Source: Paratrimastix pyriformis (taxonomy: Eukaryota; Preaxostyla; Paratrimastigidae). From it: a DNA stretch of 64,000 nt. Positions within the stretch are counted from its first letter, which is position 1; every line of letters begins with the position of its first letter. The notes under the pieces are model-generated. The model did no database searches, was not told the origin of the DNA, and saw nothing but the letters and a program-made list of their open reading frames with translations. Of the stretch, positions 7,069-58,722 are shown piece by piece. The DNA is taken from assembly GCA_027972325.1 (NCBI GenBank), contig JAPMOS010000006.1, forward strand, positions 722,501-786,500, written 5' to 3'. The position numbers and the translations under genes were made by a program.

Positions 7069-7381
7069 CGACTGGGTGGGACTGTATCTATATATACATT
7101 CAAACAGGTGATGAGAAGGAGCAGACACGGGGGGTTGGACTCTCCCGCGGTTGCCACCCTAATAATGGGCATTCCCATTTTTCTTTTCCCTGTTTCCTCC
7201 GTCTCTGGTTGCGAAAAAAATGGAGCCGTACCTGCCAGAATGTCCAAAGTGACCGCATCATAATTCGGATGTCGAGTGGATGTCACAAATTTATTCGGAT
7301 TCCTAAGCACAAAAGATTCCCGAAAAAAAATGCTCTGTCACCTCGGGAAGCTCCGCAACTTAGTCTCCCATTTGGATTATG
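7069..7381 (+). promoter_or_regulatory. Upstream region of DPE2
   Basis: About 310 bp, one of the AT-rich dips of the window, with no supported gene. A TATA-like stretch (tctatatatacatt) lies at about 7086-7099, roughly 285 bp before the ATG. It probably also holds the 3' UTR of the preceding gene. Confidence 0.4.
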
Positions 7382-10300
7382 ATGCAAGTCCGTCCTTTTG
7401 TCGGGTCGGAACCATTTTCTGACGATCGTATAGCAGCCCGTGAGTGTTGCAGTTTTTTCGGTGCATTATAGCACCCAGTGGAAGGAATCCGTCTTCCTCT
7501 GTGGGTCGATCCCCGAACTGGGTGCGTGGGATGTTTCTCGTGCTGTGCCTCTGGCTACCCATGGCGGAGTGTTCTGGTCCCTGGACATTGCGCTCCCTCT
7601 GAACCAGTCTTTCGAGTATAAGTACCTGGTTCGCAAAGAGGGCGAGGTCAGTTCGTTTTGCCAGAGCGTCGACTCATTTTTTCCGGAAGTCTTGGATTAA
7701 CTGGGAGCCTGGCATGAACCACCATTGCCACCTCGCTTGCACCCGTGGCGAGCTTGTTGAAATTCGCGACTCGTGGAATGTTGCTCTGGATTTCACTGGC
7801 GAGGCTGCCCAGTCGGCTGCTCTGCGCCTCATCATGGCTCGTGCCAACCCTCGTCCTTTGACTCCTCTCAACGTGCGTGGTCAGCATTTCCCCTTCTTTC
7901 TTATATATTCAAACCTCAATCAAACCTCATTCCGTATTGTCCCCCTAGGCAACCATATTGTTGCCCAACTTGAGGTTTGTGTCCCGTTCCTGAACCCCAA
8001 CGAGCAAGTTGGTGTCATTGGCGAAAGTGGCAACCGCCGTTTCTGGGTTCCTTCGGCGGCGCTGATGACCTCCGATGCTGATGCGCCAATCCACAAGATT
8101 CGCATTGAGGTCTGTACACGTTTTTGCAAGATTTTCACTCCAATTTTTCCCCTTGATATCAGCTCGATCCGGCTGAACTGCCCCTGCGCTACAAGTACGT
8201 CATCATTCACCCCTCGGAGCCCTCCCTGAATGTCACCGAGCCCGATGCCCCCCGTGTCCTTCATGCCCCAGTGGATTGGGACGAAGTCCCCGCCGAGGCC
8301 ACTGTCTACGGTCCCGGTGCGCAGCCGATGACCCATGCACAGGCCCGCCAGGCCGGATTCCTGCAGCCGAACATCAAGACGGCCCAGTTTGTGGTGCGGC
8401 ACGATGGCTCGTTCAAGTACCCGAACCCGCCCCACTGGCGGGCGGCCGGCATGGCCATCCCGGTCTTCTCCATCCGCACCGAGAAGTCCGTCGGCGTCGG
8501 CGAGTTCGCCGACCTGCCCCTCATGGCCGGTCCGTCCCCGCCCCGCCCCCCAACCGAACAATCGGATCATTTCGGCGTCCCCCCCCCCCCCCCCCCCCCC
8601 CCCGCCCCCCGCCCTCCGCAGAGTTCTGCCACCGGGCCGGGCTGCGGATGCTGCAGCTGCTGCCCATCACGGACACCATGGTCAACGGGGTCCACTGGAC
8701 GGACTCGTACCCCTACAGCAGCGTGTCCAACTTCGCTCTGCACCCGATCTACACCTGCCTGGAGAAGTGCGCCCCCCTGCCGGCGGAGGTTGTGCCCCTG
8801 ATCGCCCAGACCCGCGGGCGGCTCAACGGGCTGCCCCAGGTGGACTACCCGCAGACCCTCGAGGCCAAGATGAACATGCTGCAGCAGATCTACCGGCACC
8901 ACCACACCCTGGGCCTGCTCAACCACGACCCCGAGTTCGAGCGCTTCCTGGCCGACAGCCAGTACTGGCTGCCCTCGTACGCCTGCTTCAAGGTGCTGGC
9001 CGACCAGAACGGCGGCACCAACTGGACCCGGTGGCCCCGCGAGCTCCAGGAGGAGGCCGCCGTGCCCGAGCTGGTGCGGGCCATGTGCCAGCCGGCCCAC
9101 CCGAGCTACCCCGAGGTGCGCTTCTACATGTGGCTGCAGTTCCACCTGGACAAGCAGCTCCGCGAGGCCTCCGCCGAGTGCGCCGCCCTTCGGGTGGCCC
9201 TCAAGGGCGACGTGCCCATCGGCGTCGACCCCAACTCGGCCGATACCTGGTCTGCCCCTGCCGTGTGCCCTCACCGCCCGCCCACCGCCCACCGCCCACC
9301 GTTGCTCACGCACACGCGGCACCATCTGCAGGTACTTCCGCAAGTACTTCAACATCGGCACCCAGTCGGGCGCTCCCCCCGATGCCTTCTCGATGCACGG
9401 CCAGAACTGGGCCTTCCCCACCTACGTCCGCCCGGCCCCTCCCTCTCCTCCCCTCTCCACCTCCCTCTCCACCTCCCTCTCCACCTCCCTCTCCTCCGGC
9501 CCGGCGTCCACACCACTGACCGCCCGTGTCCTGTCCCTCCCCCCCGCATGCAGAACTGGGACGCCATCGTCGCGGACAAGTTCGTCTGGTGGGCGACCCG
9601 GCTGCACGTCATGGGCCGCAGCTTCCACGCGTCCGTCGCCCCTCCCCTCCCTCCCTCCCCTCCGGGCATGCCGTGCCTGTGTGTGCGCCATGATGATTTC
9701 TCTTGGCTGTCCGACACATGCCCTGGTGGATGCTTCAGAGAAGGTTTCGTGACTTGCGGCTGAGCACACGCACCCACGCCATCCAACGCGCCCCCACGCC
9801 CCTCTCCTCCACGGGCGGGAGCTCACACCCCCCCTTGCCTCTGTCCCTGCCCCCCTGCCCCCCTGCCCCGCGCAGCTATCGGATTGACCACATCCTGGGC
9901 TTCTTCCGGATCTGGGAGATTCCCCCATCGGCCCGGAGCGGCATGCACGCCCGCTTCAACCCCGGCCAGGGCATCCACCGCTCGTGGCTCGAGGCGCACG
10001 GCATCGTGGACCGGCACGGCCGGCTGACGGCCCCCTACATCACCCGGTGGCTGATCGAGACCCAGTTCGGCGAGGAGACCGACGCCATCATCGCCCAGTT
10101 CATGGAGCGCTCCCGGGGGGACGGCGAGTTCCAGTTCAAGGCCGAGTTCGCCACCGAGGACAAGATCGCCGCCTTCGAGGAGGCCCGGCTGCACATCACC
10201 CTGGACAGCACCCCGGCCCAGCTGAAGGAGTTCGACGTGCGCCTGAAGAAGTTCTGGGTGCTGACCAACTCGGTGTGCCTCTACCAGGACGAGCACAACC

Positions 10301-10616
10301 CGGACGTCTTCTACCCGCGCTTCGGCATCACCAACTCGCTCAGCTGGCAGACCCTGGGCCCCGACTGGAAGGCCCACCTGGAGCGGTTCTCCATCGACTA
10401 CTTCTACCGGTGGCACGACGAGACCTGGCGCTTCTCGGCCCACAAGAAGTTCCCCCACCTGCGGGCCGCCAGCCGGATGCTCGTCTGCGGCGAGGACCTG
10501 GGCCTGCTGGCCCCGTGCGTCTCGCCCATCATGTCCCAGTACAAGCTGCTCGGCCTCCGCGTCCAGCGGATGCCCGCCGACCCCAAGGTGACCTTCATCC
10601 ACCCCAACAGTCCGCA

Positions 10617-10689
<73 letters not shown>

Positions 10690-11220
10690 CCCGGCAACCC
10701 TTGTCCTCACGGTCATCCATCCTTTGTTGCTGTTGTTTTGACAGACTACGAGTACGGCACGGTGGCCACCACCTCGACCCACGACATGCCCCCGCTGCGG
10801 GCCTGGTGGCGGGTCATGGACCAGCGCAACTTCCGCTCGCAGGAGGAGATGTACAACTCGGAGGCCTACCGGAAGGAGATCGCCAAGATCGACCAGTTCT
10901 GGTACGACCCGGCCTTCCTGGGCAACCACAACCCCCGGCCCCGCGACCTGCCGCCCTCGGAGCTGGAGCGGATCGTGGACATGCACATGTTCTGCCCGGC
11001 CATGCTGGCCATCTTCCCGCTGCAGGACCTGCTGGCCCTGCTGCCCTCGGGGCTCTACCACCCCGAGCCCTTCGACGAGCTCATCAACAACCCCGACAAC
11101 CGCAAGCACTACTGGCGCTACCGGATGCGGTGCACCGTGGAGGAGCTCCTCCGCGACGCGGACATCATCGACCGCATCCGGGGCAAGGTCGCATCCTCGG
11201 GCCGCCTCTCCGACCACTAG
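7382..11220 (+). CDS. DPE2: 4-alpha-glucanotransferase (disproportionating enzyme 2, DPE2 type)
   Basis: Cytosolic GH77 amylomaltase that transfers glucosyl units from maltose to glycogen or other glucans. Ten exons agree in phase throughout: 7382-7387, 7437-7646, 7690-7879, 7949-8109, 8163-8529, 8622-9249, 9332-9425, 9554-9630, 9876-10609 and 10745-11220. They give about 980 residues, close to plant DPE2 (about 955). Residues 1 to about 250 hold two starch-binding CBM20 modules (WKESVFLCGSIPELGAWD; then NHIVAQLEVCVPFLN with RYKYVIIHP). The GH77 domain includes WRAAGMAIPVFSIRTEKS, LLPITDT, YRIDHILGFFRIWEIP, CGEDLGLL, LGLRVQRMP and TSTHDMPPLRAWW. As usual for DPE2, a long insert separates the early and late catalytic motifs. 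All nine donors are GTCHGY. The first exon codes only Met-Gln. Exons up to about 8100 are much less GC-rich than later ones. Confidence 0.95.
8579..8603 (+). repeat. Homopolymer C25 in DPE2 intron 5
   Basis: A run of 25 C just upstream of the acceptor at 8621, in the place of a polypyrimidine tract. Length may be unreliable in the assembly. Confidence 0.9.
10618..10690 (+). repeat. (CCTG)18 microsatellite in DPE2 intron 9
   Basis: About 18 perfect CCTG units fill the 5' half of the intron that starts GTCCGC at 10610. The acceptor is the AG at 10743-10744. The same tetranucleotide, on the sense strand, fills a striatin intron near 19 kb. Confidence 0.92.
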
Positions 11221-29878: not shown

Positions 29879-32800
29879 TCAGAGCCAGGAGCACCAGCCC
29901 TTCCACGCCCTGCCGATGACGTTGTCGTCTGTGGCCTGGTCGAGGAGGCAGTCGACCTGCTCGCCCACCGAGGCGCACCGGTCGCCCAGCCGGGCCCGCA
30001 GGTTGCGCTCGGGGTCGCCCCGGATGACGTCCGCCAGGGCCGCCCCCAGGGCCCGGTCGCTCCAGTGGGTCGAGTACTCCAGCTCCGTTTGCATGACCGC
30101 TGCGCGCCCCCCCACAGCACCCGCCCCACAGCACCCGCCCCCGCCCCACAGAGCCACCCCGGCGGCAGACCAGATGGGAAACGGCGCGGACAGGCCAACG
30201 GAAGGGAGGGTGGGGGGTGGGGGGACGATGATGGGGTGTGGGTGGGTGTGGGCGGACCGCGTGGGTTGTGGAGGTCGAGCTTGCGCCGGGTCAGGTCGAC
30301 CCGCTGGCCGGCGTACCACTCGGGCAGCGGCACGTCATCGCCGACCTCCATCTGCGCCCACCACCGCCCCCCCACACATGCGTCACGCCCCGGGTGCATG
30401 AGGGGATTGCCGGGTGCACGGGGGATGATTGCTGGATGTGTGGGGATGATTGCCGGGGGCCGGGCGGGCGGGCGGGACGGACGGCCTTGTCCTTGTTGAG
30501 GAACTTGGTCCAGTCGACGATGGGCTCGCTGACGAAGACCTCCATGGCCGCCAGCAGCACCTCGCGCCGCTCGTGGAGGGCCCCCAGGGCGTGCACCATG
30601 GTGTGCTTCAGCAGCCCCTCGGGCCCCAGCGGCTGGCAGAACTCCGTCTGCAGCCAGGGATGGCGATGGGTCAGTTGGGGATCAGAACCATGGGTCAGAT
30701 CGGGGGCCCGGTCGGGGGCCCGGGGGTCAGGATGCTGGCCTCAGGCAGGGGGGCCAAGGAGAAGCCAAGGAGGGGGAGCGGACGAATTGGCGGGTGAGGC
30801 GGAAGGGCATCATTTCGGGGGCCGGCAGGCCCAGGGACGTGCCGAAGGCGTAGCCGAAGTCGATCAGCACCATCCGCCCGCTACAACACCCCAATCCCAA
30901 CCCCAATCCCAATCCCAATCCCAATCCCAATCCCAATCCCAATCCCAATCCCAATCCCAATCCCAATCCCAATCCCAATCCCAATCAGGGCGACGGGACG
31001 GGGGGTGAGCCAGGAGGATCCGCCATGGAAAAGCGCTCGGAGGGGCGGAGGCGGAGGGGCGGAGCAGGAAGGGTGCCGACGGGGGTGGCTGGAGGGACGT
31101 GGGCGAGGACGGACCTCTCCTGGTCGAGGAGGAAGTTGTCCAAGTGCCGATCGCCGATCCCTGCACACCCACCCACCCGCCCCCGTGCCCATCGCCAGGC
31201 CCGGCAGCGGGTGAAGAAGGAGGCCCCCGAAAACCACCCAAAGGCAAAGGCGGGCGGGCGGGGTGGCGGGCCCATCAGACCGCAGATGTAGGAGGCGATG
31301 GAGGCGGTGCCCAGGGAGCGGACGAAGTTGTTGCGGATGAGCAGGTACGACTCGGCCGACGAGGCCATGCTCATCACGCCCCGCCTGCACAGCCCGCCCG
31401 CCCGCCCGCCCACACACACACACACACCGGGCGGAGCAGCAGACAGGCCACTCAGCAAGTGGATGGTGGCCGGGGCATGGCGAGGCGAGACAGCTCGGCG
31501 GGGCGCGGGGGGGCGCGGGGGCTGACTTGAGGTGGTCGGGCTTGAAGGAGGCCGCGATGCGGGTCATCATGTCGACCACGTCCCGCCGGCGGGCGACCTT
31601 GTTCATCTCGCGCACCTTCTGCGGAGCCCCCAGGTCCTTGGCCTCTGCACACCGGGCCGCGTCGTCACGCCGCATCCCCACAGGGAGAGGTGATGAAGGT
31701 GTGTTGGTGTGTGGTGGCGGGTGCGGCGGCGGGGGGTGCGGACTGGGGTTGCGCTTGGCCATGCGCTCGACGAAGGCGTCGTACTCGAAGTTGGGGCCCT
31801 TGGTGGGGCTCAGGATGGGCACGTCGGCGGGCCGCTGGCGCTCCTCGATGATGCGCTTGAGGGGCTTCGTGTTGGGGACCCACTCGAGCAGCCCCAGCCG
31901 GCTCGACATGGGCAGCACCTGCGCCCCCCCCGCCCACCCGCACCCCATCAGCATCCAATCATCCACGCCAGGAGCGGGTGAGGCGGGCGGCCGTGGTGGA
32001 TGGGCGGCCGTGTGCAGGGGGTGGGTGGGGGTGGAGGGGGGGGGGGGGGGGGGGGGAGGGGGAGGATGACCTGGTGAGTAGTCGGTGAGGTGGAGGCGGC
32101 GCTGGGCGGCTGCGGGGTCCTGGCGGAAGATGTCGTTCATGATGGCGAAGAGCTGCTCGATGCGCTGGTCGAGGCGCAGGTCCTCGCCGCCCTTGACGAG
32201 GAACATCCGCTCGGCCTCGTCGTCCCCGCGCACCGTCAGCCGCTTGGGGACCCGCATCGAGTTGAGCACCAGCAGGTCCCGGTCGAACCCGGCAACCTTG
32301 GCGTGCAGCTCGGGCCGGGGCTGACTCCGGCCCCCCCGATACTGGCCAGGAACCTCGATCGCCTCGGCAGCCTGCGCCGACACATTCACACACACAGACA
32401 CGGCCAGCCACCAGGGCCCGGGGCAGCCGCCAGCCATTCGTGTGTGTGTGTGTGTGTGTTGAGGGGGAGGGGGGAGGGGGTGGCGAGCGAGAGGAGGAGC
32501 AGAGGGCGGCGGACGTTGGTCAGGTCGTAGTCTGCCAGCCACGGGGAGAGCTCCTGCAGGGGGAAGTGGCCGCCGGCCTCGAGGATGGTTTTCTTGGCGG
32601 CCCCCATCTTGGCGCCCATCCCGTTGGCGGCCGCCATGATCCCCTCGAGCACCTTCGTCCCCTGGGGCGCCGCCAGCCCGCCCACCACCACCACAGCCAC
32701 AACACCGCAGGGCAAGAAGGCACGGGTCACCGCAGGGCAAGAAGGCGCCGAGTCACAGGCCCCGACGGACACGGGGGCTCGGGGGCGGCTCGGAGGGCGG

Positions 32801-35800
32801 GGGCGGGGGGGAGCAGGCGGACCGAGTTTCGCTCGGTGAACTCGGCCGCCCGTCCGAAGAGGCTCACCATCCCCGACCGCTCGGCCTTGCCGAAGGCCAC
32901 GTCTGTCCGAGGGTCCGCCAACCGCCCCGAAGGAAAGCCCAGCTGACGGCAGCCCCTCGCGTCATCGCCCACACCCACCGCCGCCCACCCACACTGCCGC
33001 GCCCACACCGCCGCAGGCAGGATGGAAGCGAGGGGTGGCGGGGGCAGCGGACTGGTGGGGCCCTTGGCGGGGTCGAGGTCGTCGAAGAGGTCCTCCATCA
33101 TGCGGGTGCGCAGCTCGGTCGCCCGGCCGTAGTTCTTCTCCTTCAGGGCCGTGATGATCAGCCCCAGCCAGTCCTGCAACCAGCAGACGGGCGGGCGGGA
33201 GCCGCAGGTGGGCACGGGGCCGGCGGAGGGGAGGGAGAGGGGCCAGGCAGAGCAGGGGTGTGGCAGCTGGGGGCGGGCGGCGGGGTGCGGGGACCTTGCA
33301 GCGGAGCTGGGGGTGGGTGAGCCGCTCCAGCTCGGTCACCAGCCGGTCCATCGGGGGCAGCGCCAGCAGCCCCCGCAGCGATTGCACCTGCCGCAACGCG
33401 CCCGCCCGACCATGGGAGTGCGCGAGTGGGGACGGGATCGGCACTGGCGGCGGAAATGGCGGCGGCGGGGCGGAGCATCCGGCAGAGCGGCAGGTGCGGC
33501 CAGGGCGGGGGTTGGGGTGGCGGGCGGCGGGTGGTGCGGGACGGACGATGGGGCTGTCGGGGTCGAGGTCCTCTGAGGAGATCCGGAAGGGGGAAGTGCA
33601 CACAGCCTGCGGATACTCGGTGGCCATCTGCACGGACCCCACCGGCGGTGAGTCGGGCAGGCGGGCGGGCGGGCGGGCGGGCGGGCGGGCAGGCAGGCAG
33701 GCAAGCAGGCAGGCAGGCCAGGAGGGAAGGAAGGAAGATCGCGGGGTTTGCGGACCCGCTCGAGGATGGGCCGCAGGAGGGCGGCGGCGGCCGCTTGAGG
33801 GAGCCCATCATCTGGGGCAGCCAGGCAGCAGCAGCCAGGTCGGCACCCGGGCAGCCTGCGGGGCACCGAGGGAGGGAGGGAGGGAGGGAGGAGGTCAGAC
33901 GAGCTGTCTAAGCGGCCAAGGCAGGGGGGGGGGGGGGGGGGGGGGGGGGGGTGTGACGGACGTGGGCTGCGAAGAGGGCGTGCGTGGTCGGATGCTCGGC
34001 GGCCGTGTCGAGGGCCTTGGGGAACCTGCGCCAGACCAAAGACCAGGGCCCGAACGCGATCACGGACGGGTCCGCGGGTGGAAGCCCCCGCCCACCACCC
34101 GCCACCACCGGAGCGGACCGATCGCGGGCCAGGAAGCTGCCCAACTCGAGGGCCCGCAGCAGGCTGGTCACCAGCGTCCGGGCGCATTCGTCCGCCTGTC
34201 GCCGCCCAGCCACCGCCACCCACCATCCGACGGTCCGGCCGACGGCAGGGGCGACAGCAAGGCGTGGGCGTGGGCGTGGGGCGTGGGCGTGGGGCGTGGG
34301 CGTGGGCGTGGGCGTGGGCAAGGGCAGGACGGACCTGAGCCTTGGCGGCAGGGGCGGCGGGCTGGGCGGCCTCGAGGCGGGCCAGCCAGGCGGCACAGAA
34401 GAGCCCGTACTGGACGTGCAGCTTGGCCGCCTCCTGGAGCTGCTCCCCGCAGACAGTCCGCATGATGGGCGCAGGCCGCACCACCACACGGGGGTCGAGG
34501 AGCAACAAGCCCGAGGCGGAGGCCGGGGCGAGGCGGAGGCCGGGCGGACCTGCTCTGGGGCCGCCTCGACCATGCCGGCGGCCTGGCGGAAGCACTGGTG
34601 CGCCTCGGCCCAGCGGTCGGTGGCCTGGGCGCGGGCCTGGGCGCAGGTCAGGGCGGGCAGCACCTCGGCGGGTGGGGTCGCCTCGCCCTCGCCCCCGTGG
34701 CCCTCGGCGTCCACCGACCCACCCGCCGCTGGGCCCATCGCGCATCGCGCATGCATGCGAGCGGCAAGACAATGGTGATCAGAGGCACGCGCGGCATGGC
34801 CTGGGGGGAGGGGGGAGGGGGTGCTCATGACGGACCGGGGGGCAGGTCGGCAGGGAGCGCGTCGAGGGCCGTGGCCAGGCGGGCGAGGACCTTGCCCCGG
34901 TAGCGCATGAAGGCCAGGCGCTTGGTGGGCTCCCGGGCAAGCTTACCCTGTGTGTGCGGTGGCGTGGACCGGGACGGCCGAGCGGTGGAAGGAAGAAGAA
35001 GAAGAGGGCACAGTGAATCCTTTCCCCCGAGGGGAGATGGCGGCGGGGGGCCCAGTGGGACGGCTGGGGGCGGCGGGGCGGACGGGCGGGTAACGTGCCA
35101 GGTAGTCGGCCAGGGAAGTGAGGGCCGTCAGCTGGGTACGGCCGGGGGGCAGGGCGGCCGCCTTGGCCACGTGCAGCTTGACGAACGACCGCAGGAAGCC
35201 GAAGTCCATGGGCCTGCGCCAGACCAGCCCCCCAGCGAGGGGCGGGGCCAAGCGTGGAGGCGCCGGCCGGAGGCAGTGGGCAGGGGGGTGGCGGCTCTGT
35301 GGGCGGTGGATGGCGGGGGTGCGGACCGGTCCTCCTTTGCGGTGCCCGTGGCGGGGGCGACCCCGGCCGCCCTGGCGAAGGCCGCCCCGCCCAGGCGGAG
35401 GCCCATCTTGAAGGCGGCCTGGCAGAGGCGCAGGTACTTGGCCGCCACGGCGAAGTTGCGCTGCTTGCGGGCGCAGTCGCCCACCAGGCGGAGCATCGTG
35501 GCCCGCCCGTGGAACAGGGCCCCTTCCACCTCGGCCCGGCTCAGGGACGGCGCCCCACCCACAGCCGAGCTCCCGCCCCCGGCCGCCGGCTCGGCCTCGT
35601 CGGCTATCGGGCGCGGGATGGGATGGGATGGGATGGGATGGGATGGGATGGGATGGGATGGGGGGATGGGATGGGATGGGATGGGATGGGATGGGATGGG
35701 ATGGGATGGAATGTGTAATGTGTGAGGCGGGACGGCAGCGTGGTGTGACGACGGGGGTTCAGTGGAGGGTTGGTGGGCGGACGAGGGGCGGGCACGGCGT

Positions 35801-38800
35801 AGAGGATGGGCTGGAAGCGCTTAACGAGGGCCTCGATGATGATCGTCCGGCTGCTCATCAGGTCCGTCCAGACCTCCGTCCCGTCCAGCGCCGTCGACGG
35901 CCACCTGCAAGCAAAAAATGGGCCCGGGCGGCGATCGGGCGCCCGTTTCGGCCGGGACGGCATTGGGACGGGGCAGGGGCAGGGGCAGGGGGCAGGGGGC
36001 AGGGGGCAGGGGGCAGGGGCAGGGGCAGGGGCAGGGGGCAGGGGCAGGGGCAGGGGGCAGGGGGCAGGGGCAGGGGCAGGGGGCAGGGGGCAGGGGGCAG
36101 GGGGCAGGGGCAGGGGCAGGCAGGGGCAGAGGGCAGGGGGGTGGCGAACCTGCCGGCCCAGGTCTCGACCATCCTGAGGAAGCGTGCCTTGGCCACCTCG
36201 GGCGCCTGCGCCGAGCAGGAGGCCGCGAAGTCCAGGGCCTCGTCCAGCTCCCCGATCTGGGCCGCCCGTCCCGCACCCCGCCATACATGCCCGACGGTTG
36301 GATGCCGTGCCCCCGACAGACCGCCAACTACCTGCCCCGGAGGTGTGCGTGTGCCTGGTGTGCGTGTGTCTGGTGTGCGTGTGCCTGGTGTGCGTGTGTC
36401 TGGTGTGCGTGTGTCTGGTGTGCGTGTGTCTGGTGTGCGTGTGTCTGGTGTGCGTGTGCCTGGTGTGCGTGTGTCTGGTGTCGTGTGTGGGGCTCAAGCG
36501 GACCCGCTGGATCTGCTGCAGGAGGCACCGGCGGGCGTGGGTGGCGAGGGGATGCAGGGCCGCCCACTGGTCGAGGATCTGCCCCTGTGCCGTCCGGACG
36601 TACTGCCGCGCCCGATCGAACTCCTCCTGCGCCACCGCCACCAGGGCCAGCTCTGCCAGGCACGGCCGGGGGTGCCGGGGGTGCGGATGGGTGATGGATG
36701 AGCGCGGGGGCGGCGAGGGCGGCGGACCGGCGGCGTGGTGCTCCTGGACGAGGCCCAGCTGGCCGCGGGCCTGCGCCTGCCGGACAAAGTCGGCCAGCGC
36801 CTCGAAGCGCTGCGGCTCGTAGAGGTGCGACCGGATGAAGTACCCCAGCAGGGCATGCTGCGCCACCATCCAGCCGACCCCCGCACCCCCCCGGGGCGTG
36901 AGACTGAGATGGCGACGAGGGGGCAGCCCGCCGCATGCAGCCTCGTGGGGGGGCGGACGCGGTACTCCTCGGCCAGGAACTTGGTGGGGTCGCCGGCCAC
37001 CTCGTCCAGCACCTGGGCCCCCAGGTCGTCCCACCGGGTCAGCTGGGCGTAGCACTTCAGATAGCCCGCGTAGAGGGTGTCCGACTGCGGTGGGGCGGGA
37101 GCGAGGGTGAGGGAGGGTGTGTGACGGCCATTCGCAAGACCATCGCGAGGAAAGCTGCCAATCGGGGTCAGCGGGCTGGTTGATTGATGGTGGTTGTGGT
37201 GGGTGGGTGGGTGGGTGCGGCGGACCTCGAACGCGCTCTGCTCGTGGCCCTGCTGGCGCTCGAGGGCGCTGTGGTAGAGGAGCAGGGCCGCGTTGTAGTC
37301 GCCCGACAGCTCGGTGTCGATCGCCTGCCGGGTCAGCTCTTGCCGGGCCACCCGGTGGGCCAGGCCCCGCAGCACGTCCTGCGCCCCGACCGTACCACGA
37401 TGAGCCGACCCGACGAGGCGGCGGAGGCGGCCAGGGGATGGAGGATGGATGGATCATACGAATGGATGGAGGGATGGGGGCCAGACCTCCTCGCCCAGGG
37501 CCTTGTAGAGGTGGCCCAGGTGGGCATGGACCGTGTCGCGCACTTGATCGCCCTCTGGACCCGCCCCAACCCACCCCAGCAGACGAAGGCATTCGGTCAG
37601 CACCACAGACGAAGGCATTCGGTCGGTCAGCACCACGACGGCCCTTCCGATTTGGCGGGCGGCCCAAGGGTCGCAGCAACATTATCCGAAATCGCATCGA
37701 TGATCCGGCTGCCCCCGCTGCAGACCTGGGCCCGTGTCGGCACGGGCGTCCTCGAGGCGCCGCTCGAGGAGCAGGACGCCGGCCTGGTGGTTGCTCGACC
37801 GGGCGGCCGAGAGGAGCACCGTGTCCGGGTCCAGGGTGGCGAAGTTCAGCTCGAGGCACAGGCCCTGCAGGGCGCCCACGAAGGCCGGGTCGTGGGGGCT
37901 GCCCCTGCAGCGCAGCAACGCCAACGACCCCGCACCGACAACAGGGGAAGTCACGCAACAGGGGATGCCACGCAATATGGATGGCTGATGGCGGGCCCCC
38001 CCAAGGAGGGCAGCCGCGAGACAGGGCAGGGCAGGGCAGGGCAGGGCAGGGCAGGGCAGGGCAGGGCAGGGCAGGGCAGGGCAGGGCAGGGCAGGGCAGG
38101 GCAGGGCAGGGCAGGGCAGGGCAGGGCAGGGCAGGGCAGGGCAGGGCAGGGGGCGGACTCAGCGGCGCTCTGCTGGAGGAGGAAGTGGATGTGCTCGTAG
38201 AGGCGACTGGCGGTCCGCTCGCGGGTGGCGGCCTTCTGGGACTTGCAGGCCCACTCGTAGACGGCCCGCACCAGACTCTGCCCCGCCCCGGGGGAGGGAG
38301 AGGGAGAGGGGAGGGTTTGGGAGGGGGGGGGGGGGGGGGGGGAGGGGACGTGAGGCGGCAGGCGCAAGTCGCCGAGGTTGGTGCCGCCGAGTGGACGCGA
38401 CACCAGGGCCAGGGGCCAGGGGCCAGTGAGACATGGCCAGTGAGACATGGCCAGTGAGACATGGCCAGGGGCCAGGGGCCAGGGGGCCAGGGGGCCAGGG
38501 GGCCAGGGGGCCAGGGGGCCAGGGGGCCAGGGGGCCAGGGGGGCCAGGGGGCCAGGGGGCCAGGGGCCAGGGGGCCAGGGGCCAGGGGGCCAGGGGGCCA
38601 GGGGGCCAGGGGGCCAGGGGCCAGGGGGCCAGGGGCCAGGGGGCCAGGGGCCAGGGGCCAGTGAGACATGTGGGGGCCAGTGAGACATGGCCAGGGGGCC
38701 AGTGAGACATGGCCAGGGGGCCAGTGAGACATGGCCAGGGGGCCAGGGGGCCAGGGGGCCAGGGGGCCAGGGGGCCAGGGGGCCAGGGGGCCAGGGGGCC

Positions 38801-39446
38801 AGGGGGACAGGGGGACCGAGCCAGGGGGACAGGAGGGCCGGGCCAGGGGCGTGGGCGGAGGGCGGACCACGAAGAGGAGCCGAGCGAATGTGGCGTCCCG
38901 CTTGGCGAGGGCCTGCAGGGGGACCACCAGCTCGCGCGGCTTGAACTGAATGTCTGCGGCAGCGCCGGGACGCGGGGGGAGGGGAGGAACGTGCGGTGAT
39001 GAGGGCGCGCCCCGGGGGCACCCTGGGGTGGTGCTGCGGACCGGGCAGCTCGCCGGTGCGGTAGTGGCGGTACATGACGACTCGGGTGTGGCGCCCCTCG
39101 CGCTGCCGCTGCAGGTAGGCCTCCCGGGACCGCTTCAGCTGGGCCTGCCGCCTGCGAACAGCGGGGCCGCCACCCCACAGGAAGGCGAGGGGGTGGGGGG
39201 CCGGAAGGGTGAGCCGCCCACCGGATGCGGGGGCAGGGGCGGGGAGCGGGAGCCGGAGCGGCATTGCCGAGCGGGCGGACCGGATGATGAGCGACTGGGT
39301 GCTGCTCTCGGGCCGGGCCGCGAATCGCCGCACGACGTGTGCCAGGGGGCCCTGCTCGGCCGCGGGGATGTCCCCCGCCAGGGGCCGCCGCCGGGCCTGG
39401 GGCCCCTCCAGCCCTGCCCGGCCCCCAACATCAACCGGCAGGGCAC

Positions 39447-39477
<31 letters not shown>

Positions 39478-42400
39478 CACCAGAGTGCGATGAGCACGGG
39501 AGAGGGGGCGGAGCGCGGGGAGACGGAGGGTGATGGGACGGACCCTCGATCTGCATGGAGCCGGCCCCGGCCCCGAGGGTGGCGCTCTCGAGGGTTGCCG
39601 GGCCCAGGGAGAAGAGCATCGTGCTGGTGTTGAGCTCGTCCAGGGCGCTCTGGGTGGCCGTGAAGGAGGCCGCCTGGGTGGCCCGGACGAGCCCCATCTG
39701 GGTGGCGTTCTCCAGGATCTGCGCCCCACCCACCGCCCGACCCGACCACACCACCCGGACGTGGGCAAGGAACCCGGACGAGGGCATGGATGTTAGAAAC
39801 CCGAAGGGGGCGGAGGGCAGGCGGGGGCATGGGCGGAGGGCAGGCGGGGGCAGGGGGCGGGATGGCGTGCGGACGCCCTGCTGCTGGAGGTGGAGCGGGT
39901 GGAAGAGGGGCGTCCCCACGGCCCCGGCGGGGGCGCCCGTCCGGGTGGCGTCGGTGGCCGAGGCGACGGCCTCGATGGGCAGCGGCCGCCAGGTGGCGTT
40001 GGCCGTGAGCGGGTCGAAGAGGGGGCTCTCGTAGTCCCCGCTCCGGCTGCACAGGGCCAGCAGCAGCGGGCCGGCGTAGTGCAGGTAGCGCCGCTCGGCG
40101 GTGGGGGCGTACATCCGGTGGCTGAGCAGGTCCATCGCCCGGCCCAGCGGCTCCTCCGCCAGCCGGCCGCCCCCGTCCCAGAACTCGAAGAGCCCCGCAC
40201 GGATGGGCTCCGCGTCGTCCAGCAGCCCCTCCAGCAGCTGCCCCCCGAGGGACCCGCCAGAGGGAGGCAAAGGGGGCGGTGAGAATGGCAGGATGAGGGT
40301 CGGGGGAGGGACGGGGTGGGGGCACGGAGGGGGGGCAGAGGCGGACGTGCTGGCGGATGGCGGCGAGGAGGGGCGCCTGGGGGTCGTCGCTGCCGTGGGG
40401 CAGCAGGTCGTAGAGGCGCTTGAGCAGGCTGTAGAAGGCCGCCCGGCAGCGGACCGAGGGGTGCCCCCGCAGGTTGCTGACCAGCATCGGGAAGACCTGC
40501 CCCCGCCCCACCACGCCCCCCGCCGCCCATCAGAGGAGGGGCAAGTCGTCGCGTCAGCTGGGGCACCAACGGCCCGGCCCGTCAGGCGGCCAGGGCAGCG
40601 GAGGGGCACCCGTGCGGACGGCGTCGAGGAGGGCGGTCCGGTCGGCCGGGGGCATCTTGGGGAGGGCCTTCTCGAGGACGGCCACGGCCAGGGCCTGCAC
40701 CTGCTCGTCGCGCCGGCTGAGCAGGGCCCCGATGTGGGGCCGCACCGTGGGCCCGAACTCGGCCCGCACCTGCTCCAGCTTGGCGTTGGGCGGTGGGGGT
40801 GCCCGCCGGGGGGCCGGGGCCTCCTCCTGGCTGCCGCCTTCCCGGCCGGCCGCCGGCGGCTCGTCAGCCACGGCCCCCAACCGCCAGGCCAGGATCTGCA
40901 CCCGCCCCCGCCGCCGCTGCCAAGCTGCCGCTGCCGCTGCCGCCAAGCCGCCGCTGCCAAGCCAAGCCGGCCAAGCTGCCGCCGCCAAGCCAAGCCAAGC
41001 CAGACCAAGGAGACGCCGGACATGAGGCGCCAGAGGCAGCCGGCAAGGGGCAGGAGGGCGTGGCGTGGCGTGGCGTGTGGGGCGGGGCGGGGCGGGGGGC
41101 GAGGGGACCTGGAGGGCCTTGGCGAGGAAGAGCCCGTAGACGCGGCCGAGGAGCTCCATGCAGCGGGGCAGGTACTCGTCCAGGAAGGGCTGCCAGTGGA
41201 GCCCCACCATGTGCAGCGTCGTCAGGAACCGGTCGTAGCGCTCCCCGCTGTACATCTGCACCAGCTGCGCCCGTCCCAACGCCCCCAAGCAGAACCGCCG
41301 GAAGCGAGTGAAGCGGCCACGGGGGCGCAGGGGGCGCCCTTCCTCCGGGCGACGGACCTGGGCGTTGAGGGCCTCCGTGAGGCGGCCCCGCGAGAGGGCG
41401 GCCTCGGGCCCGGCCTCTGGGGCGGACAGGTTCTTGAGGGCCATCCCGCACACCTCGCCCGCTGCCTCGTAGACCTGCCCACCCCCAGCCCAGCCCAGCC
41501 CAGCCCAGCCCAGCCCAGCCCAGCCAGCCCCACACCGGTGCGCCGACGAGCGTGAGCGGCAAGCGCGGCCGATGGCGCGAACTGGGTGACAGCAGTCGGG
41601 ACGGAAGGTCTGTGGTTGTGGCTGGGCGACCTCGCGCTTGTCGTAGTCGATGCAGCGGACGAGGCCCTCGTAGAGGCGGGTCTCGTTGAAGTCGCCCGCC
41701 GCCTCGCGGATGTCGTACGGGGGCAGCCCGTTGGCCAGCAGCACACCCATGATCTGCCCGAGGTGGTGATGGGCAAGGGGCCGGGCGGGGGGCGGCCGGG
41801 ATGAGCCGTGACGGGCAGGAAGGAGGTCCGACGAGGTCAAGGATGGTGCCGGACCTGGAGGCCGGCCCCCTTGAATGTGCGGGTCATGGCCTCGTCGTGG
41901 TGGGCATCCATGCCGCCCGGGGGCGGGCGGAAGGTCAGGTAGCGGTGCACGATGCGCCGCTTGGCCGCCAGGATGGCCCGCCAGCGCTCCACGAAGAGCT
42001 TCAGGATCTCCAGGTTGCTCTTGACGATCCCCTGCAGCCCCCAGCCGCCGCCCATCCCCCCAAATGGCCCACACGACGACCGCGAGGATCCAGGCGGAGG
42101 TGAGGCAGCAGAGCGGCCAGGCGGGGAGGCGGGGCGGCCAGGTGGATGGCGTGCGGGCCTTGTGCTCGTTGGGGATGTTCTTCATGATGTGCTCCACCAG
42201 CCGGCTGGCGGCCGGCCCGGTGGGCAGGGGGGCCTTCTCCCAGCGGAGCAGCACCAGGCACAGGTCCCGGGCCATGTAGTGCAGCCCCTTGCCCCCGTTG
42301 GTGGGGCTCGTGATCAGCTGGACGCCCCGCCAACCCCACCCCCAACACCCAATGGCGGCCAACTACGGTCAGCATGGCGATGGCGGCAATGGCTGTGTGG

Positions 42401-45400
42401 CAGTGGCACTGTGGCCGTGCGGCTTGTGAATGGCAATGTGGCAGTGTGGCAGTGTGGCTGCGGCTGTGGCAGTGTGGCAGTGTGGCAGTGGCAGTGGCAG
42501 TGGCAGTGGCAGTGGTAGTGGCAGTGGTAGTGGCAGTGGCAGTGGCAGTGGCTGTGACAAGGACAATGGCAGAGGCAGGAGCAGTGGCGGCGGGGCGGGA
42601 GGCGGACGGCGATGAGGGGCTCCACCCAGTGGGCGGCGTAGGGCTCGAAGGCCGCGGGCCGGTTGACGATGAGCTTGGCCACCAGCAGCTGGGCGTTTAG
42701 GTGGTACCGCTCGGGCTGGGTCAGCACTGCCCCCGCCACCACACGGGCGCGGTTCGCACAGCCAGCCACGAGACGATGAGCACGGAAACCCCCCGGGAAC
42801 GCAGGACATGGATGGGGCAGGGCATGCTCGCTGGGCGGATGGGGCAGGGCATACTCGCTGGGCGGATGGGGCAGGGCATACTCGCTGGGCGTACTCGCTG
42901 GATGGCAGGCGGCCTGGCGGACCTGCGTGCAGCTCGCTCATCCATTTGGGCATCTCGGGCGGGGGCCCCCCCGGGACGGGCGGGGGCGGGTGGGGCGCAT
43001 CGGGCAGGGCGGCCATCTTGTCGATGACCCGGACCAGGGTGCCCATGCAGGGCAGCTGGTTCAGGTGGTCCGCCTCCAGGCGCCCCTCTGGTCGACACCC
43101 GGTGACCACGGAAGCCCGCTCAGGCGACACACCGAGCGGCGAGGCAGGAAGGATGGGGCTGGGATGGGATGTATGGGGATGGGGGACCTTTCGGGGCGGC
43201 GGGCTGCTGCTGGTGGCTCTGCTGCTGCTCGAGCATGCGGGGCGCGTTGGCGAGCATGGCGGGCGTCACCAGCTGGGTGGCCCCGAAGAAGGACCCCTGC
43301 ACGCGGTCCGGCCCGACCAGCGACCGCGGTGGGAGTTGGGCGGGCGGGATCGTCGAAGCGGGTTCGCAGGCAGGCGAGGAGGGGCGGGGTGGGGCGGGGG
43401 GCGGGACCGGACCATGTAAGGCAGCTCGGCCGTGAGGGAGCTGCCCTCGAGGTACTGGGTGCCCAGGTAGCGGGGCACGGGCGAGGGCGAGTCGGCGCCC
43501 TCGGACCCCTCGGCCTCGCTCTCGTCTGCCCCTGGATGGCGGGGAGGGCCGAGGGAAGTGGGAAGAGGCGAGCGGGTCGGGTCGACCGTGCCAGGGTGGG
43601 GGAGGCAGGCGGGGGGGTGGAGGACAAGGGCGGACCAGGGCCGGGCGAGGGCGCCGGCTTGTCTGCGGCCGCCTGGCGGATGCCGGCCAGGGTCGAGGTG
43701 GCCGCCGAGAACTGGGTCAGGGCCGTGAAGCTGTACGTCACCTGCGCCCCGCCACCCAGCCAGCCCACATGGCCACGTGACGACACAGCCAGCCTCCAGG
43801 TGTCCGGTGGGCGGGGGGGGGGGGGGGGTGGAGCAGCAGACGGTGGGGTCGATGAGGCAGTTCCAGAGGAGGTCCCCGTCCCTGCCCTCCTTGAAGAGGA
43901 ACACGTTGTAGAACTTGGAGAGGCTCTGGGTGGCCATGATCACCTCCGCCAGGCAGCACCAGGCTGCGCTGTGGTAGCGGAAGAGCACCCGCCCGTCCGT
44001 GGCGGGCAGGCGCGGCTGCCCCCCCAACAGCCCCATGGTGCCGTGTCGCTCGGGATGAGCCTTGGGATGGCGGCACTGGGATCGGGCCAGGGCCGGCGCA
44101 GGCAGGGGGGCAGACCCGCTCGGCCTTGGCGCGCTCGGTGAGGGCCATCATGTCCTTGGTCAGCTCGCTGCCCTTGGCCTGGGGCCCGTAGATGGCCCGG
44201 GTCAGGTGGGCCAGCCCCTCGGCCCCCAGGGCCCCGTAGGCGCCCTGCATCAGCCGGAAGTAGGCCGCCCGCAGCTGGAGGGCCTCGTTCTCGGCGGCCA
44301 CCACCGCAGGCGCGTTGGTCAACCCTGCCCTCGCGCGCCGGCCGAGACAGAGACGAGGCAGACCCGGGGCCCAGAGAGGTCAGCCGGGTGGCCCAGAGGC
44401 GGGGCCACAGAGGCGGGGGCGGGGGCGCAGCGGGACGGACCCAGGCCGGGCATGGGGGCCATGGGGGCCTTCAGGGCGGCCAGCGCCTCGGGGGCGACAC
44501 CATCCAGGGCCTGCTGGGCCACGGGGGCGCCCATCCGGGCCAGCAGGGGCAGCCCGACCCGCTCCAAGACGGCTACTCGGAGGTCCAGCGGCAGCCGGCC
44601 GTCTCGGAAGTGCCCAGCGGCTGCCCCGAAGGCCGCCAGCAGCCCCGCCGAATTGAGCGACCCCACGAAGCGCTGCAGGGCCCAGTTGATGCTAGAGTTC
44701 GGGGGGCGGTGTGAGAGGGATGAAGGATGACGGGCTGAGGGTCGGGCAGGGGGGCGGACCGGCTCAGACAGGTGTGGGCCTCCTCACGGAGGACAACGAA
44801 GAGCGGCTCCAGGACGGCCAGGCTCTGGGCCCCCACCAGCGTCTCCAGCAGGCACTCCAGCAGCGCCACATACCGGGTGTGCCTGGGCACAGGGCCATCA
44901 TCATCCACAGAGATCGCGCCCATGAAGCCGAGGAGTAGGCAGGGCCGGGAGGAGGGATGGATGGATGGAGGGATGGAGGGAGGGAGGTGGCAAACGGACG
45001 GCGGGGTGCCCGGGGTGAGGTCGGTCGAGCGGAGGGGGAAGTCCGCCAGCACGCAGGCCTGCACGTGCCGCTTGACCACCTCCCCGAAGGCCACCCGGCC
45101 CGCCCCCAGTACGGGCAGGGCCGCGGGCGGGGCCCCCTTGGGGTCGGGGCCCAAGGGCGGCAGCTCGGCCGGCACGTGCACCAGGAAGACCCGCAGCAGC
45201 TCCAGGGCCTGCAGCCGCAGCGCTGGGGAAGGGGGGTGGGGGGAGGGCAGCAGACGCAGACGGGTGGGGGTACATGAGTCGTCAAAACAGGCACCGTGAT
45301 CGTGCATGGCGGGGGCAGGCGGACCGGCGGCCTCGTCGCCCCGCTGGGAAGTGTCCAGCAGCTGCAGGTAGCTGTCCACCAGGTAGCGGTGCCATCCAGT

Positions 45401-48400
45401 CCCCGCCTAGGATGGTGGTAGGAGTAAGCGTGGATGGTGGTGGTGCTTGTGAGCGTGGGGAGGGGGGGGGGTGGGGGGGCGGACCCTCGCCGAGGGCCCA
45501 GGTCGAGGGCCAGCAGGCGGGTGAGCAGCACCAGGTAGCGGCCCCGCAGGTCGATCGCCTCGGGGCCAACCAGGCGGCCAGTCGCGCCGCCGCGCATGTC
45601 CGGTGAGACGCCGTGGCCGAGGTGCATCACGATCGTTGGGCGGGCGGGCGAGCGGGCGAGCGGGTGGGGGGGGCGGACGGACCTTCATGAGAGCTCGAGA
45701 GCGGAGGCGCCATTGGCGGGCCTGGCGGTACTGCCGCTGCCACTCGGCCCGCCCCTCGGGCTGCTCAGGTCCAGCGGGCCGGCCGGCCTGGGGCTCCGCC
45801 AGCCGGGGCCGCCTCGGGAGGCCCGGGCCCTTGGCGGGCTCCTTGGCGACCTCCTTGGCCATCTCGGCCAGGGGCCCGCGGGGCGGGGGCGCGGTGGGGC
45901 GCCGCCATGCGGGCGTGGTAGTCGACGACGGCCGTCAGCAGGTCGAAGGCGTGCGGGTGCTGGGCCAAGAAGGGGTGCACGACCAGCCGGGCCCCGTACC
46001 GGGCAAAGTGCACCGCCATGTGGTCCAGCACCTGCCCACACACCCGGCCGCCAGGGGAACAGCCGCAGACGGTGGCGGAACGGTGAAACCACAGTGAAGG
46101 CCGACTCGGAGAGAGAGAGGGGGGAGGGGAGGGGAGGGAGGGAGGGGCGTAGGGGTGTCTGCGATGGCCGGCGGCTGGGCGCGGACCACGATGCGGTAGT
46201 TCTGCAGGAGGACGGCGCCCCGGGCCATGCGGCCCATCCCCGTCCCGGCCTCCTCGCCCCCCATCAGGGCGATGTGTGGCTCGCCCTCGGCAGGCGCCTC
46301 AGCGACCGCGGCGGCCGCGGCGGCGGCGGGGCCCGTGGCCTTGGCCTTGGCCTTGGGGGCCTCGCTGGGGCCGGCAGGCTCGACCGCCTCCAGCGAGGCT
46401 CCCTTCGGCGGCCTGAGCCTGGGCTGCCCCCGGGGCGGCGGGCGTCCCCTCGGGCGTCGCGTCCTGAGCCCATTGCGCCTCCGAGAGTGAGCGTGCGAAG
46501 GGGGTGGGCACCCATTACCCATCTCCCCGCCGGGCCCTGCGGTTCCCAAATCGCACTTCGGGGGGGGGCGGACCGTAACCATGACCCAGAACTCGTCGTG
46601 GGGCAGCCCCAGCGCGAGGGCCACCCGGAGGGCCTCGGCCCCGAGGTCCTTCTCGAGGGGCCCCGCCTGCGAGGTGCGCTGCTGGGCGTGCCCCGCCAGT
46701 CGGCTTGGGGGCACCACGCAGATGGCCCAGCCAGGCCCGGGGCGCACGGTCCGGGTGGAATGACGGTCAGATGGGTGGCGGGCGGGGCGAAGCCAACAGG
46801 ACAGGCGAGCGGTGGAAGGGCCGGGCGACGGACCGTGCCAGGGCGACCGGGTCGCAGAGGTTGGCCAGCAGGCCCGCCGCGTGGAGCTGCTCGTAGCCGC
46901 GCAGCATCTGCAGGATGTGGCTGCTGTTGGCCTCTGGTCGCCCCCCCCCCGCCCGCGGAGGCCCCCCACCCACCCACCCCAGCAGCACCCGCCCGCTTCA
47001 TGTTGTGGGGGGCACCCAAAGGCTGAGGGGCGGGATGTGGGCGGGCGGGGCAGGACGCCGGACCGGCCTGGGCGAGGTCGGCCTCGAGGAGGTTGGCCCC
47101 GGGCTCGCGCCAGAGGGCCGCCAGCTCGGCCGCCAGCAGGCCGCACTGGGCGGGGCTGAAACCGCCCTGCGAGCCGCGCACCATCAGGTGCATCGTGATC
47201 TGCAGCAGCCGACGTTGCTGGGGAGGGGAGGGGAGTGGAGGGGTGTGCCCAGAGGGGGCGAGGCGAGGCGAGGAGGAAGCAGGGGTCAGTGTCGGGCAGC
47301 GGGGGTGCGGGGCATGGAGCCGGTGGGCGGGGTGGGCCGTGCGGGCGACCATCTTGGTGTCCTCGGGGGCGAAGCCGAGCCGCATGGGGCACATGACGGC
47401 CCGAGCCAGGAGCCGCATGTAGGGCGCCGTGCCCAGGGCGGCCGGCAGGGGCCCCTCGGCCGGCTGGGAGGGCGACTGGGACAGGACCTGCGAGCCCCCG
47501 GCGGCCCCCCCGGGGTGGCTGAGCTCCCAGAGCTGGGCCATCAGGTGCAGGATGGCCACCACAAGGCGGCACCGGGTCCGCTTCAGGCCCGCCGCGACGG
47601 CAGCCGTGGCTGGGGCGGCCATGGGGCCGGGCGTCCCGGGGGGCGGCGGCCCGGGGGCCGCGTCGGGGGCGGGCGGGGCGCTGAGGGCGTCGAAGGGGCA
47701 CGTCTCGAGGAAGTTGCACACGGCCGCCAGCAGGCTCGAGGGCACCTTGGTCGTGGCCGCCTTGCCCTGCAGGCGCCCCGCAGCCCCGCCACCACCCCGG
47801 GTGAGGGAGGCGCCACCAAGTCGGACAGCAGCCAGTGGACCATCTGGCGTGCACTGACGGGCAGGCACGGGGCAGTGACGGGAGGTTGCGGGGCGGGGCG
47901 GGGCGGGCTGCGGACGGGGGGCAGGAGGACGACGGCCGTGGGCATGAAGCCGGCCCGGAATGTCCACATGTGGCAGTCGATCGACCGCAGGAGCTGCTCC
48001 ATCCAGAGCAGCAGCTGGTCGGGGGGCGCCCCCCGGGCGAAGGTCGGCTCGCGGTCGATGCCCGCGTCGAAGACGTCCGTCACGAAGCGGCCCCCGCGGC
48101 CCGAGCCCTGGATGCTGTTCTTGATCCACGTCTTGGCCGACGGGTTCCCGGGCGTGGCTGCACGGGGGCATGGGAGGGGGGGGGGGGGGGGGGGGGAAGG
48201 CAGCAAGGGCGGGTCATGTGATGCAGGGATCCGAGACTCGGGAGGCGGGTTGGTGGTTGGTGGTTGTGAGAGAGGAGGCTGCGCGGGGCGGACGTGGGAC
48301 GGCGACGGGGACGAGGGCCTCGAAGAGGGCCATGGCCTCGGTGCGGCAGCGGGTCTCGACCCGGCCCGTCTCGGCCCAGAGGAACTCCACCACGTAGCCG

Positions 48401-53165: not shown

Positions 53166-53197
<32 letters not shown>

Positions 53198-58634: not shown

Positions 58635-58722
58635 GTGTGGCCTTCTTGGATGCTCCTGAGCTTACAGCATAAAAACGTTAATTTGTGCGGATTCCAGGCA
58701 TTGACAGAAATGTCATTTGGGG
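58635..58722 (+). promoter_or_regulatory. Spacer between GSS and the coiled-coil gene
   Basis: AT-rich, short; presumably the GSS 3' end and the next promoter. The true start of the next gene is not fixed, so this spacer may be longer. Confidence 0.3.

Follow-up and report, generated by a model that had tools for sequence, protein, structure and literature searches.

Probable joint change of the U1 snRNA 5' end and of 5' splice sites in Paratrimastix pyriformis

Few eukaryotic sequences are as conserved as the 5' end of the U1 small nuclear RNA (snRNA), with its recognition sequence ACUUACC. Nucleotides 5 and 6 of U1 are pseudouridines in human and yeast. The part of a 240-species survey that deals with U1 reports ACUUACC unchanged in every U1 identified, even after donor switches, and its authors name a change of U1 pseudouridine 5 to A as a possible or expected compensation in Saccharomycotina (PMC10581693). 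Larvaceans depart genome-wide from the usual 5' splice site (donor), as P. pyriformis does; there, according to the sections on U1, the U1 5' ends stay complementary to canonical donors and a changed N6-methyladenosine modification is proposed (PMC13326754). Here we describe the donors of a 64-kb window of DNA from Paratrimastix pyriformis, a free-living protist of the Preaxostyla (the whole stretch analysed, positions 722,501 to 786,500 of contig JAPMOS010000006.1), and the snRNA genes of the assembly to which it belongs (56.06 Mb, 495 contigs). The donors are best summarised as GUC[C/U]G[Y], and U takes the +3 position now and then. Nucleotides 5 and 6 of U1 have very probably changed from UU to AG in the Paratrimastix lineage, and the 5' splice sites have changed alongside.

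Donors of checked and predicted introns

The initial annotation of the window had derived the consensus GTCNGY from the gene for DPE2 (4-alpha-glucanotransferase) and from introns placed in six other genes. Our first joining of the ten DPE2 exons gave an open frame of 981 amino acids, for which a protein search returned P0001 (GAFH01000767.1.p2) at 100% identity over 100% of the query. The source paper describes GAFH01 as a transcriptome assembly, sequenced by 454, from the species then called Trimastix pyriformis, which is now placed in Paratrimastix (PMC3596361). P0001 is one residue longer than the first joining (MMQQ start), which places the first acceptor at 7433, and the entire protein maps exactly onto the genome with nine introns. 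One GT-AG placement per junction reproduces P0001 at all nine junctions; the donors lie where they had been listed, with the same hexamers, and each has C at +3 (Table 1).

The gene for glutathione synthetase (GSS) had been credited with seven introns with +3 C. The +3 C stands, and the count rises to nine, seven of which are shared with P0121, the annotated putative glutathione synthetase of P. pyriformis. All nine donors have +3 C and +5 G, and eight fit GTCNGY. The remaining two, introns 3 and 5, which are in frame and retained as coding by the published annotation, are probable introns.

Exons of the CCT chaperonins were located one by one with Pfam PF00118 (47 matches). After a lone match on contig C51 was left out, 46 matches on eight contigs formed 38 consecutive exon pairs, eight of which were excluded because of a large gap in the profile. 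Of the 30 junctions tested, frame and profile allow one or more GT-AG pairs in 26: a GTC donor is possible in 23 of these, GTCNGY in 18 and GTRNGY in one. Where only one donor fits (n = 12), it is GTC in 11 cases and GTTGGA in the other. The TCP1-alpha gene can also be read against its transcript protein, P0241 (GAFH01001226.1.p2), which allows a single GT-AG placement at eight of nine junctions, with +3 C in five, T in two and A in one. At intron 6 (C223, 208442-213318) no GT-AG placement gives P0241; the genome reads CAGTCTGT, and one extra G would fit. This junction, either an assembly error or a real exception, was left out of the transcript-checked introns. DPE2 and TCP1-alpha together thus provide 17 transcript-checked GT-AG introns, with +3 C in 14, T in two and A in one, and a placement with the ends of U2-type introns exists for 17 of their 18 junctions.

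For a wider sample, we used a donor-blind Viterbi gene finder whose inputs are GT, AG, reading frame and codon usage, with no donor model. It covered the window, the CCT loci and six regions of 10 kb each, which start at round coordinates and lie on six contigs (the window's contig, far from the window, is among them). Introns were counted when shorter than 500 nt, flanked by exons of coding score above 6 and part of a gene of score above 25. The codon training set held the CCT exons, DPE2 and GSS, and 18 DPE2 and GSS introns lay in its background. C occupies +3 in 111 of 132 window introns, compared with 35.5% of all window GT (p 1.6e-30), in 73 of 99 from the six regions (p 8e-16; 184/231 with the window, background 35%) and in 48 of 71 from the CCT loci; C follows 34% of all GT in the analysed sequences. 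A codon model from CCT exons alone gave 93/123 for the window and 69/95 for the six regions, lower values that are far over background.

When the donor matrix was re-estimated, this trained run returned 275 donors with C at +3 in 250, T in 16, G in seven and A in two (window 115/121, six regions 77/85, CCT loci 58/69). They have G at -1 in 67%; +3 is C in 91%; +4 is C in 63%, T in 26% and A in 5%; +5 is G in 84%; and +6 is C in 49% and T in 36%. The interiors of these introns (median length 117 nt) hold 14% A, 42% C, 23% G and 21% T. In the window and the six regions most donors begin with GTCCG; in the CCT loci the most frequent donors are GTCTGT and GTCTGC. The donor-blind set includes false introns, and the trained set is biased by its own matrix. 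With +3 C in 250 of 275, the donors depart from the GTRAGT consensus of U2-type introns. U12-type donors read RTATCCTT, and most of those found here, GTC[CT]G, do not follow that pattern either. Dominant as it is, +3 C is not invariant.

Ordinary donors a few bases away, raised by the initial annotation as what might undo its consensus, are ruled out as a general explanation: GTRAGY lies within -12 to +18 of one of 275 donors and of one of 229 controls, and the looser GTRNGY near 15 of 275 and 10 of 229. We therefore rejected nearby GTRAGT donors.

Base composition is another candidate: the window is 70% GC and intron interiors are 42% C, so that GC-rich sequence and C-rich introns might mimic a GTC signal. 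A control on the window and the six regions with eight decoy donor dinucleotides in place of GT does give a modest rise for each, with +3 C at 0.35-0.52 for backgrounds of 0.26-0.39, and GT does not reach the top total gene score (6437, against 6819 for GC and 6473 for TC). Gene score alone thus fails to single out GT; base enrichment at +3 and +5 does. C at +3 together with G at +5 occurs in 135 of 231 GT introns, as against 17 to 32 of 196 to 242 for the eight decoys. In the trained donors, +3 C reaches 91% against 42% of interior bases, and +5 G 84% against 23%. The signal persists, at a lower level, in CCT loci of 56-63% GC, and U1 itself is changed. A compositional artefact runs counter to the decoy control, to the introns checked against transcripts and to the U1 sequences; it was rejected, and we assign it a probability close to nil.

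Introns are also dense (275 in the trained sample), as might be expected if a single founder donor had been carried across the genome by introner-like elements. However, 20 of the 275 resemble another intron at E <1e-3, and among the 12 alignments listed the long ones (up to 290 nt, 73%) recur on the same intron pairs and are repeat-like. The introns are not copies of one another, and this origin, extremely improbable, was rejected.

Training of the published gene finder relied on genes curated by hand and on intron hints from RNA-seq, and the main text of the genome paper uses 'splice' once and the words 'snRNA', 'exon' and 'donor' not at all (PMC10703272). In effect, that gene finder had presumably learned GTC donors.

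U1 genes and their pairing with the donors

A search with the Rfam U1 model RF00003, in which 41 of 992 first-look candidates were scored, identified eight U1 genes (50.8 to 60.2 bits, E 3.7e-13 to 2.0e-10), each aligned over the full length of the model (positions 1-166). A scan of the 64-kb window with the whole of Rfam gave no match. All eight genes open with AUACAGACC in place of canonical AUACUUACC, their gene-level 5' start being ATACAGACCTTG. Nucleotides C4-A5-G6-A7-C8 are common to all, with AG at positions 5 and 6 where canonical U1 has UU, and the recognition sequence is ACAGACC rather than ACUUACC in every copy. A 30-mer pattern for stem-loop 1 (SL1; up to three mismatches) found the same eight genes and no others in the assembly. 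The canonical U1 11-mer ATACTTACCTG has no match on either strand of the 56 Mb, as against 57 for its reversed control. At the level of gene sequence, these results support the earlier proposal of an altered U1, since the predicted G opposite +3 is present in all eight genes; the example then given, GCGGAC, is right at nucleotide 6 and wrong at nucleotide 5, where A is found in place of G.

The alignment keeps SL1 with its GAUCA loop, an Sm-like site and a 3' hairpin capped by UUCG. Upstream of every U1 gene lies the motif CCCATAA, at -59 or -60; in the eight U2 genes read it lies at -58 to -60. Because this distance is nearly fixed, AUAC is the probable start of U1 transcription; the 5' end of the RNA likely lies there, and the genes are presumably expressed with it. 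CCCATAA also occurs upstream of all seven U5 and all four U6 genes, which makes 27 of 27 snRNA genes read, about 52-67 bases before the matches and at a distance nearly fixed for each RNA.

In the predicted duplex, G6 lies opposite +3 C and A5 opposite +4 (C 63%, U 26%). U1 5'-AUACAGACC would meet G/GUCNGY through C9:G-1, C8:G+1, A7:U+2, G6:C+3 (or a wobble with U+3) and C4:G+5, and A3:U+6 would be added where the donor has U at +6. A5 would pair with U at +4, in about a quarter of donors, and face C in most others, leaving +4 weakly constrained. G6 accounts for +3, and A5 suits just the +4 U donors. The trained donors without +3 C are chiefly T (16 T, 7 G, 2 A), as wobble pairing with G6 predicts. 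Selection appears to be strong at +3 and +5 and weak at +4, where the 26 curated donors have 13 T and 10 C and the 275 trained donors 71 T and 174 C. After U1 binding, the donor would be handed to an unchanged ACAGAGA box of U6, whose ACAG could also pair with donor CUGU, G44 standing opposite +3 C.

The fit of U1 to these donors was compared with that of all 16 dinucleotides at positions 5-6. Averaged over the trained set of 275 donors, the duplex energy is -10.32 kcal/mol for GG, -6.88 for AG, -6.34 for CG, -6.06 for UG and -2.90 for UU, so that GG ranks first, AG second and canonical UU last of 16; the 26 curated donors likewise put AG in second place, and UU 13th. The U1 found is far better than the canonical one for these donors and short of the best possible. 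Pairing between U1 and donor presumably drives recognition in the cell.

A donor read by proteins such as U1-C or U1-70K, independently of pairing, would leave the U1 5' end free to drift. Entamoeba donors are GUUUGU. Splicing without U1 has precedents: passages on U1 describe Entamoeba as reportedly lacking this snRNA (PMC13292270) and the red alga Cyanidioschyzon as being without it (PMC11732430). Against drift, the 5' end and SL1 are invariant in eight U1 copies on eight contigs while the flanks differ, and the two changed bases are non-random relative to the donors, AG being second of 16. Recognition independent of U1 pairing is therefore very unlikely.

Several observations weigh against a joint change of U1 and donors, or against the form given to it here. 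Position A5 is unmatched in most donors (+4 is C in 63% and U in 26%), and GG would pair better. The non-C donors of the donor-blind run are not chiefly T (39 G, 23 T and 8 A of 302), and +3 C is rarer in the CCT loci than in the window in both runs (48/71 and 111/132 donor-blind, 58/69 and 115/121 trained). The earlier claim of +3 C in 29 of 29 introns, right as to the dominance of C, is too strict genome-wide (250/275), and TCP1-alpha has the transcript-checked donors GTTCGT, GTTTGT and GTATAT. All eight U1 genes score under the Rfam gathering score of 69.5 bits (best 60.2), and the two alignments read contain several non-standard pairs; we name the genes putative recoded U1 from structure and number, not from the curated score. 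When U1 is folded alone, nucleotides 4-8 pair with the Sm-site region. A bound Sm ring would prevent this pairing.

Donors with T or A at +3 sit towards the 5' ends of conserved genes: introns 1, 3 and 4 of TCP1-alpha (GTTCGT, GTATAT, GTTTGT), introns 1 and 3 of U1-C (GTTCCG, GTTTGT) and the CCT junction of contig C28 at profile position 60 (GTTGGA). Position or base composition may be behind them.

Other spliceosomal components and the likeness of U1 to U6

Among the snRNA recognition sequences read (U1, U2, U5 and U6), U1 alone departs from the canonical form. Four U6 copies at 96.7 bits carry GATACAGAGAAGATTAGC with the box GAUACAGAGAAG, ACAGAGA being present in all four; four weaker matches under the cut-off were left uncounted. 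The U5 loop is GCCTTTTAC in seven of seven genes. U2 is represented by nine matches over the cut-off and one fragment, and the eight genes read carry GTAGTATCTG with the recognition sequence GTAGTATC in each. These canonical sequences count against a changed U6 or U5 contact, which the initial annotation had offered as another cause. Two sub-threshold matches to the C/D-box family sR5, in a GATGATGA repeat by a U2 gene (L024:152-273), are probably low complexity.

A U1-C orthologue is encoded on contig C68 by the second zf-U1 match (L075); its N-terminus (42 amino acids from joined exons) matches residues 1-41 of structure-solved U1-C chains, and the three introns in this stretch start with GTTCCG, GTCTGT and GTTTGT. 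The best zf-U1 match (L074) was rejected as U1-C, as it reads like what we take to be a WBP4/FBP21-like protein. METTL16 is present (L072, C332), its predicted exons matching structures of the U6 A43 methyltransferase at 6e-31, ahead of the related psilocybin synthases at about 1e-23, and so is SNRNP27K (L077, C9; 34.7 bits). Passages on +4 in two studies tie both proteins to +4 A in other species (PMC10581693, PMC11732430). That link does not hold in P. pyriformis, which has both genes and 5% +4 A.

With AG at nucleotides 5 and 6, U1 shares seven bases, AUACAGA, with the U6 box GAUACAGAGAAG. The first four of these, AUAC, are a feature that canonical U1 has in common with U6. U1 ACAGAC is the reverse complement of GUCUGU, and U6 ACAG that of the CUGU within it. 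We tentatively suggest that U1 now copies the ACAGA box of U6. It would then read donor positions +3 to +6 with the very bases that U6 applies afterwards, a single donor word, GUCUGU, would suit both RNAs, and the two successive checks of the 5' splice site would come down to one and the same sequence. If so, METTL16, which methylates U6 A43, might also methylate U1 A5, which lies in the same UACAGA context. The resemblance between U1 and U6 could, as a hypothesis, have driven the donor change. Pairing of +3 C with U6 G44 may have helped +3 C to be tolerated or favoured, or may follow from both RNAs reading one word.

A further step would be to let U6 lead, the donors having changed to suit it (+3 C with G44; +4 U, +5 G and +6 U with A43, C42 and A41) and U1 having followed by adopting AUACAGA. 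The identity of this U1 stretch to seven bases of an unchanged U6 box would then be accounted for, and GTCTGT and GTCTGC lead among the donors of the CCT loci. In addition, the usual A or G at +3 can meet U6 G44 only weakly, according to the part of PMC11732430 on this contact. C would presumably be a stronger partner. On the other hand, GTCCG, which lacks pairing with U6 A43, makes up the majority of donors in the window and the six regions, and METTL16 and SNRNP27K are present although +4 A stands at 5%. Other lineages keep canonical U6 without +3 C, so U6 alone is insufficient for the donor change. That U6 came first is, in our view, doubtful.

The window also holds a DNA-PKcs gene, in a metamonad, with 90 predicted exons and ~4400 amino acids; this region is the chief contributor of window introns to the donor statistics (Table 1).

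Table 1. Genes and introns placed in the window, with donor hexamers and the basis of each placement.
Feature	Position	Strand	Basis
DPE2 (4-alpha-glucanotransferase) gene	7379..11220	+	10 coding exons, stop codon included; exon joining and transcript protein
DPE2 intron 1, GTCCGT, acceptor ATAG	7388..7433	+	sole GT-AG placement reproducing P0001
DPE2 intron 2, GTCAGT	7647..7689	+	sole GT-AG placement against P0001
DPE2 intron 3, GTCAGC	7880..7948	+	sole GT-AG placement against P0001
DPE2 intron 4, GTCTGT	8110..8162	+	sole GT-AG placement against P0001
DPE2 intron 5, GTCCGT	8530..8621	+	sole GT-AG placement against P0001
DPE2 intron 6, GTCTGC	9250..9331	+	sole GT-AG placement against P0001
DPE2 intron 7, GTCCGC	9426..9553	+	one placement of any kind against P0001
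DPE2 intron 8, GTCCGT	9631..9875	+	sole GT-AG placement against P0001
DPE2 intron 9, GTCCGC	10610..10744	+	one placement of any kind against P0001
DNA-PKcs gene region	29879..55995	-	90 exons (trained gene finder); Pfam DNA-PKcs and PI3_PI4_kinase exon matches
GSS (glutathione synthetase) gene	56418..58672	+	10 coding exons including stop; Pfam, exon joining, P0121, stop position
GSS intron 1, GTCTGC	56446..56487	+	own placement; same in annotated protein P0121
GSS intron 2, GTCTGC	56678..56721	+	own placement; same in P0121
GSS intron 3, GTCCGT (probable)	57164..57268	+	own placement; in frame, 105 nt, retained as coding in P0121
GSS intron 4, GTCTGT	57346..57447	+	own placement; same in P0121
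GSS intron 5, GTCGGC (probable)	57545..57613	+	own placement; in frame, 69 nt, retained as coding in P0121
GSS intron 6, GTCCGC	57810..57921	+	own placement; same in P0121
GSS intron 7, GTCTGT	58000..58049	+	own placement; same in P0121
GSS intron 8, GTCTGG	58435..58489	+	own placement; same in P0121
GSS intron 9, GTCTGC	58582..58634	+	own placement; same in P0121

Comparison with described splicing systems

A joint change of U1 and donors would mean that the helix was altered on both sides together, and a near-universal eukaryotic pairing appears to have been rewritten genome-wide. The 85 trained introns in 60 kb, roughly extrapolated, suggest that tens of thousands of introns are concerned. 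The relative weight of U1 and U6 in setting the 5' splice site becomes testable in nature, and the species offers an orthogonal U1/donor pair. Annotators should be warned that standard splice models will not work for this lineage. Among open-licence PMC papers, supplements being outside the scope, we found no wholesale recoding of U1 in another lineage.

Like canonical U1 (RF00003), the RNA predicted here extends over model positions 1-166 and has the SL1 GAUCA loop, the Sm-like site and the 3' UUCG hairpin. It differs in its recognition sequence, AUACAGACCUUG here and AUACUUACCUGG there, and in that its eight genes fall under the gathering score. The diplonemid S. specki also has a natural U1 gene whose 5' end is altered; the account of that gene places a C-stretch variant beside canonical U1, with a canonical donor logo (PMC12621601), whereas in P. 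pyriformis the donors are changed and no canonical U1 start was found.

The +4 A to +4 U switches of Saccharomycotina are likewise lineage-wide changes of a donor position. As set out in the sections on these switches, U1 ACUUACC is invariant there in every species in which U1 was identified, and the switch is associated with METTL16 (PMC10581693), unlike P. pyriformis, where U1 is changed and METTL16 is present. The closest relative in this comparison is the oxymonad Streblomastix, a member of Preaxostyla with GT-AG introns like those described here; its introns, 21 from one oxymonad in the part of the study that reports them, have A at +3, U at +4 and G at +5 (GUAUGU-like) (PMC1501061). Because Streblomastix, the one relative considered, has A at +3, the change of donors and U1 probably arose on the Paratrimastix side.

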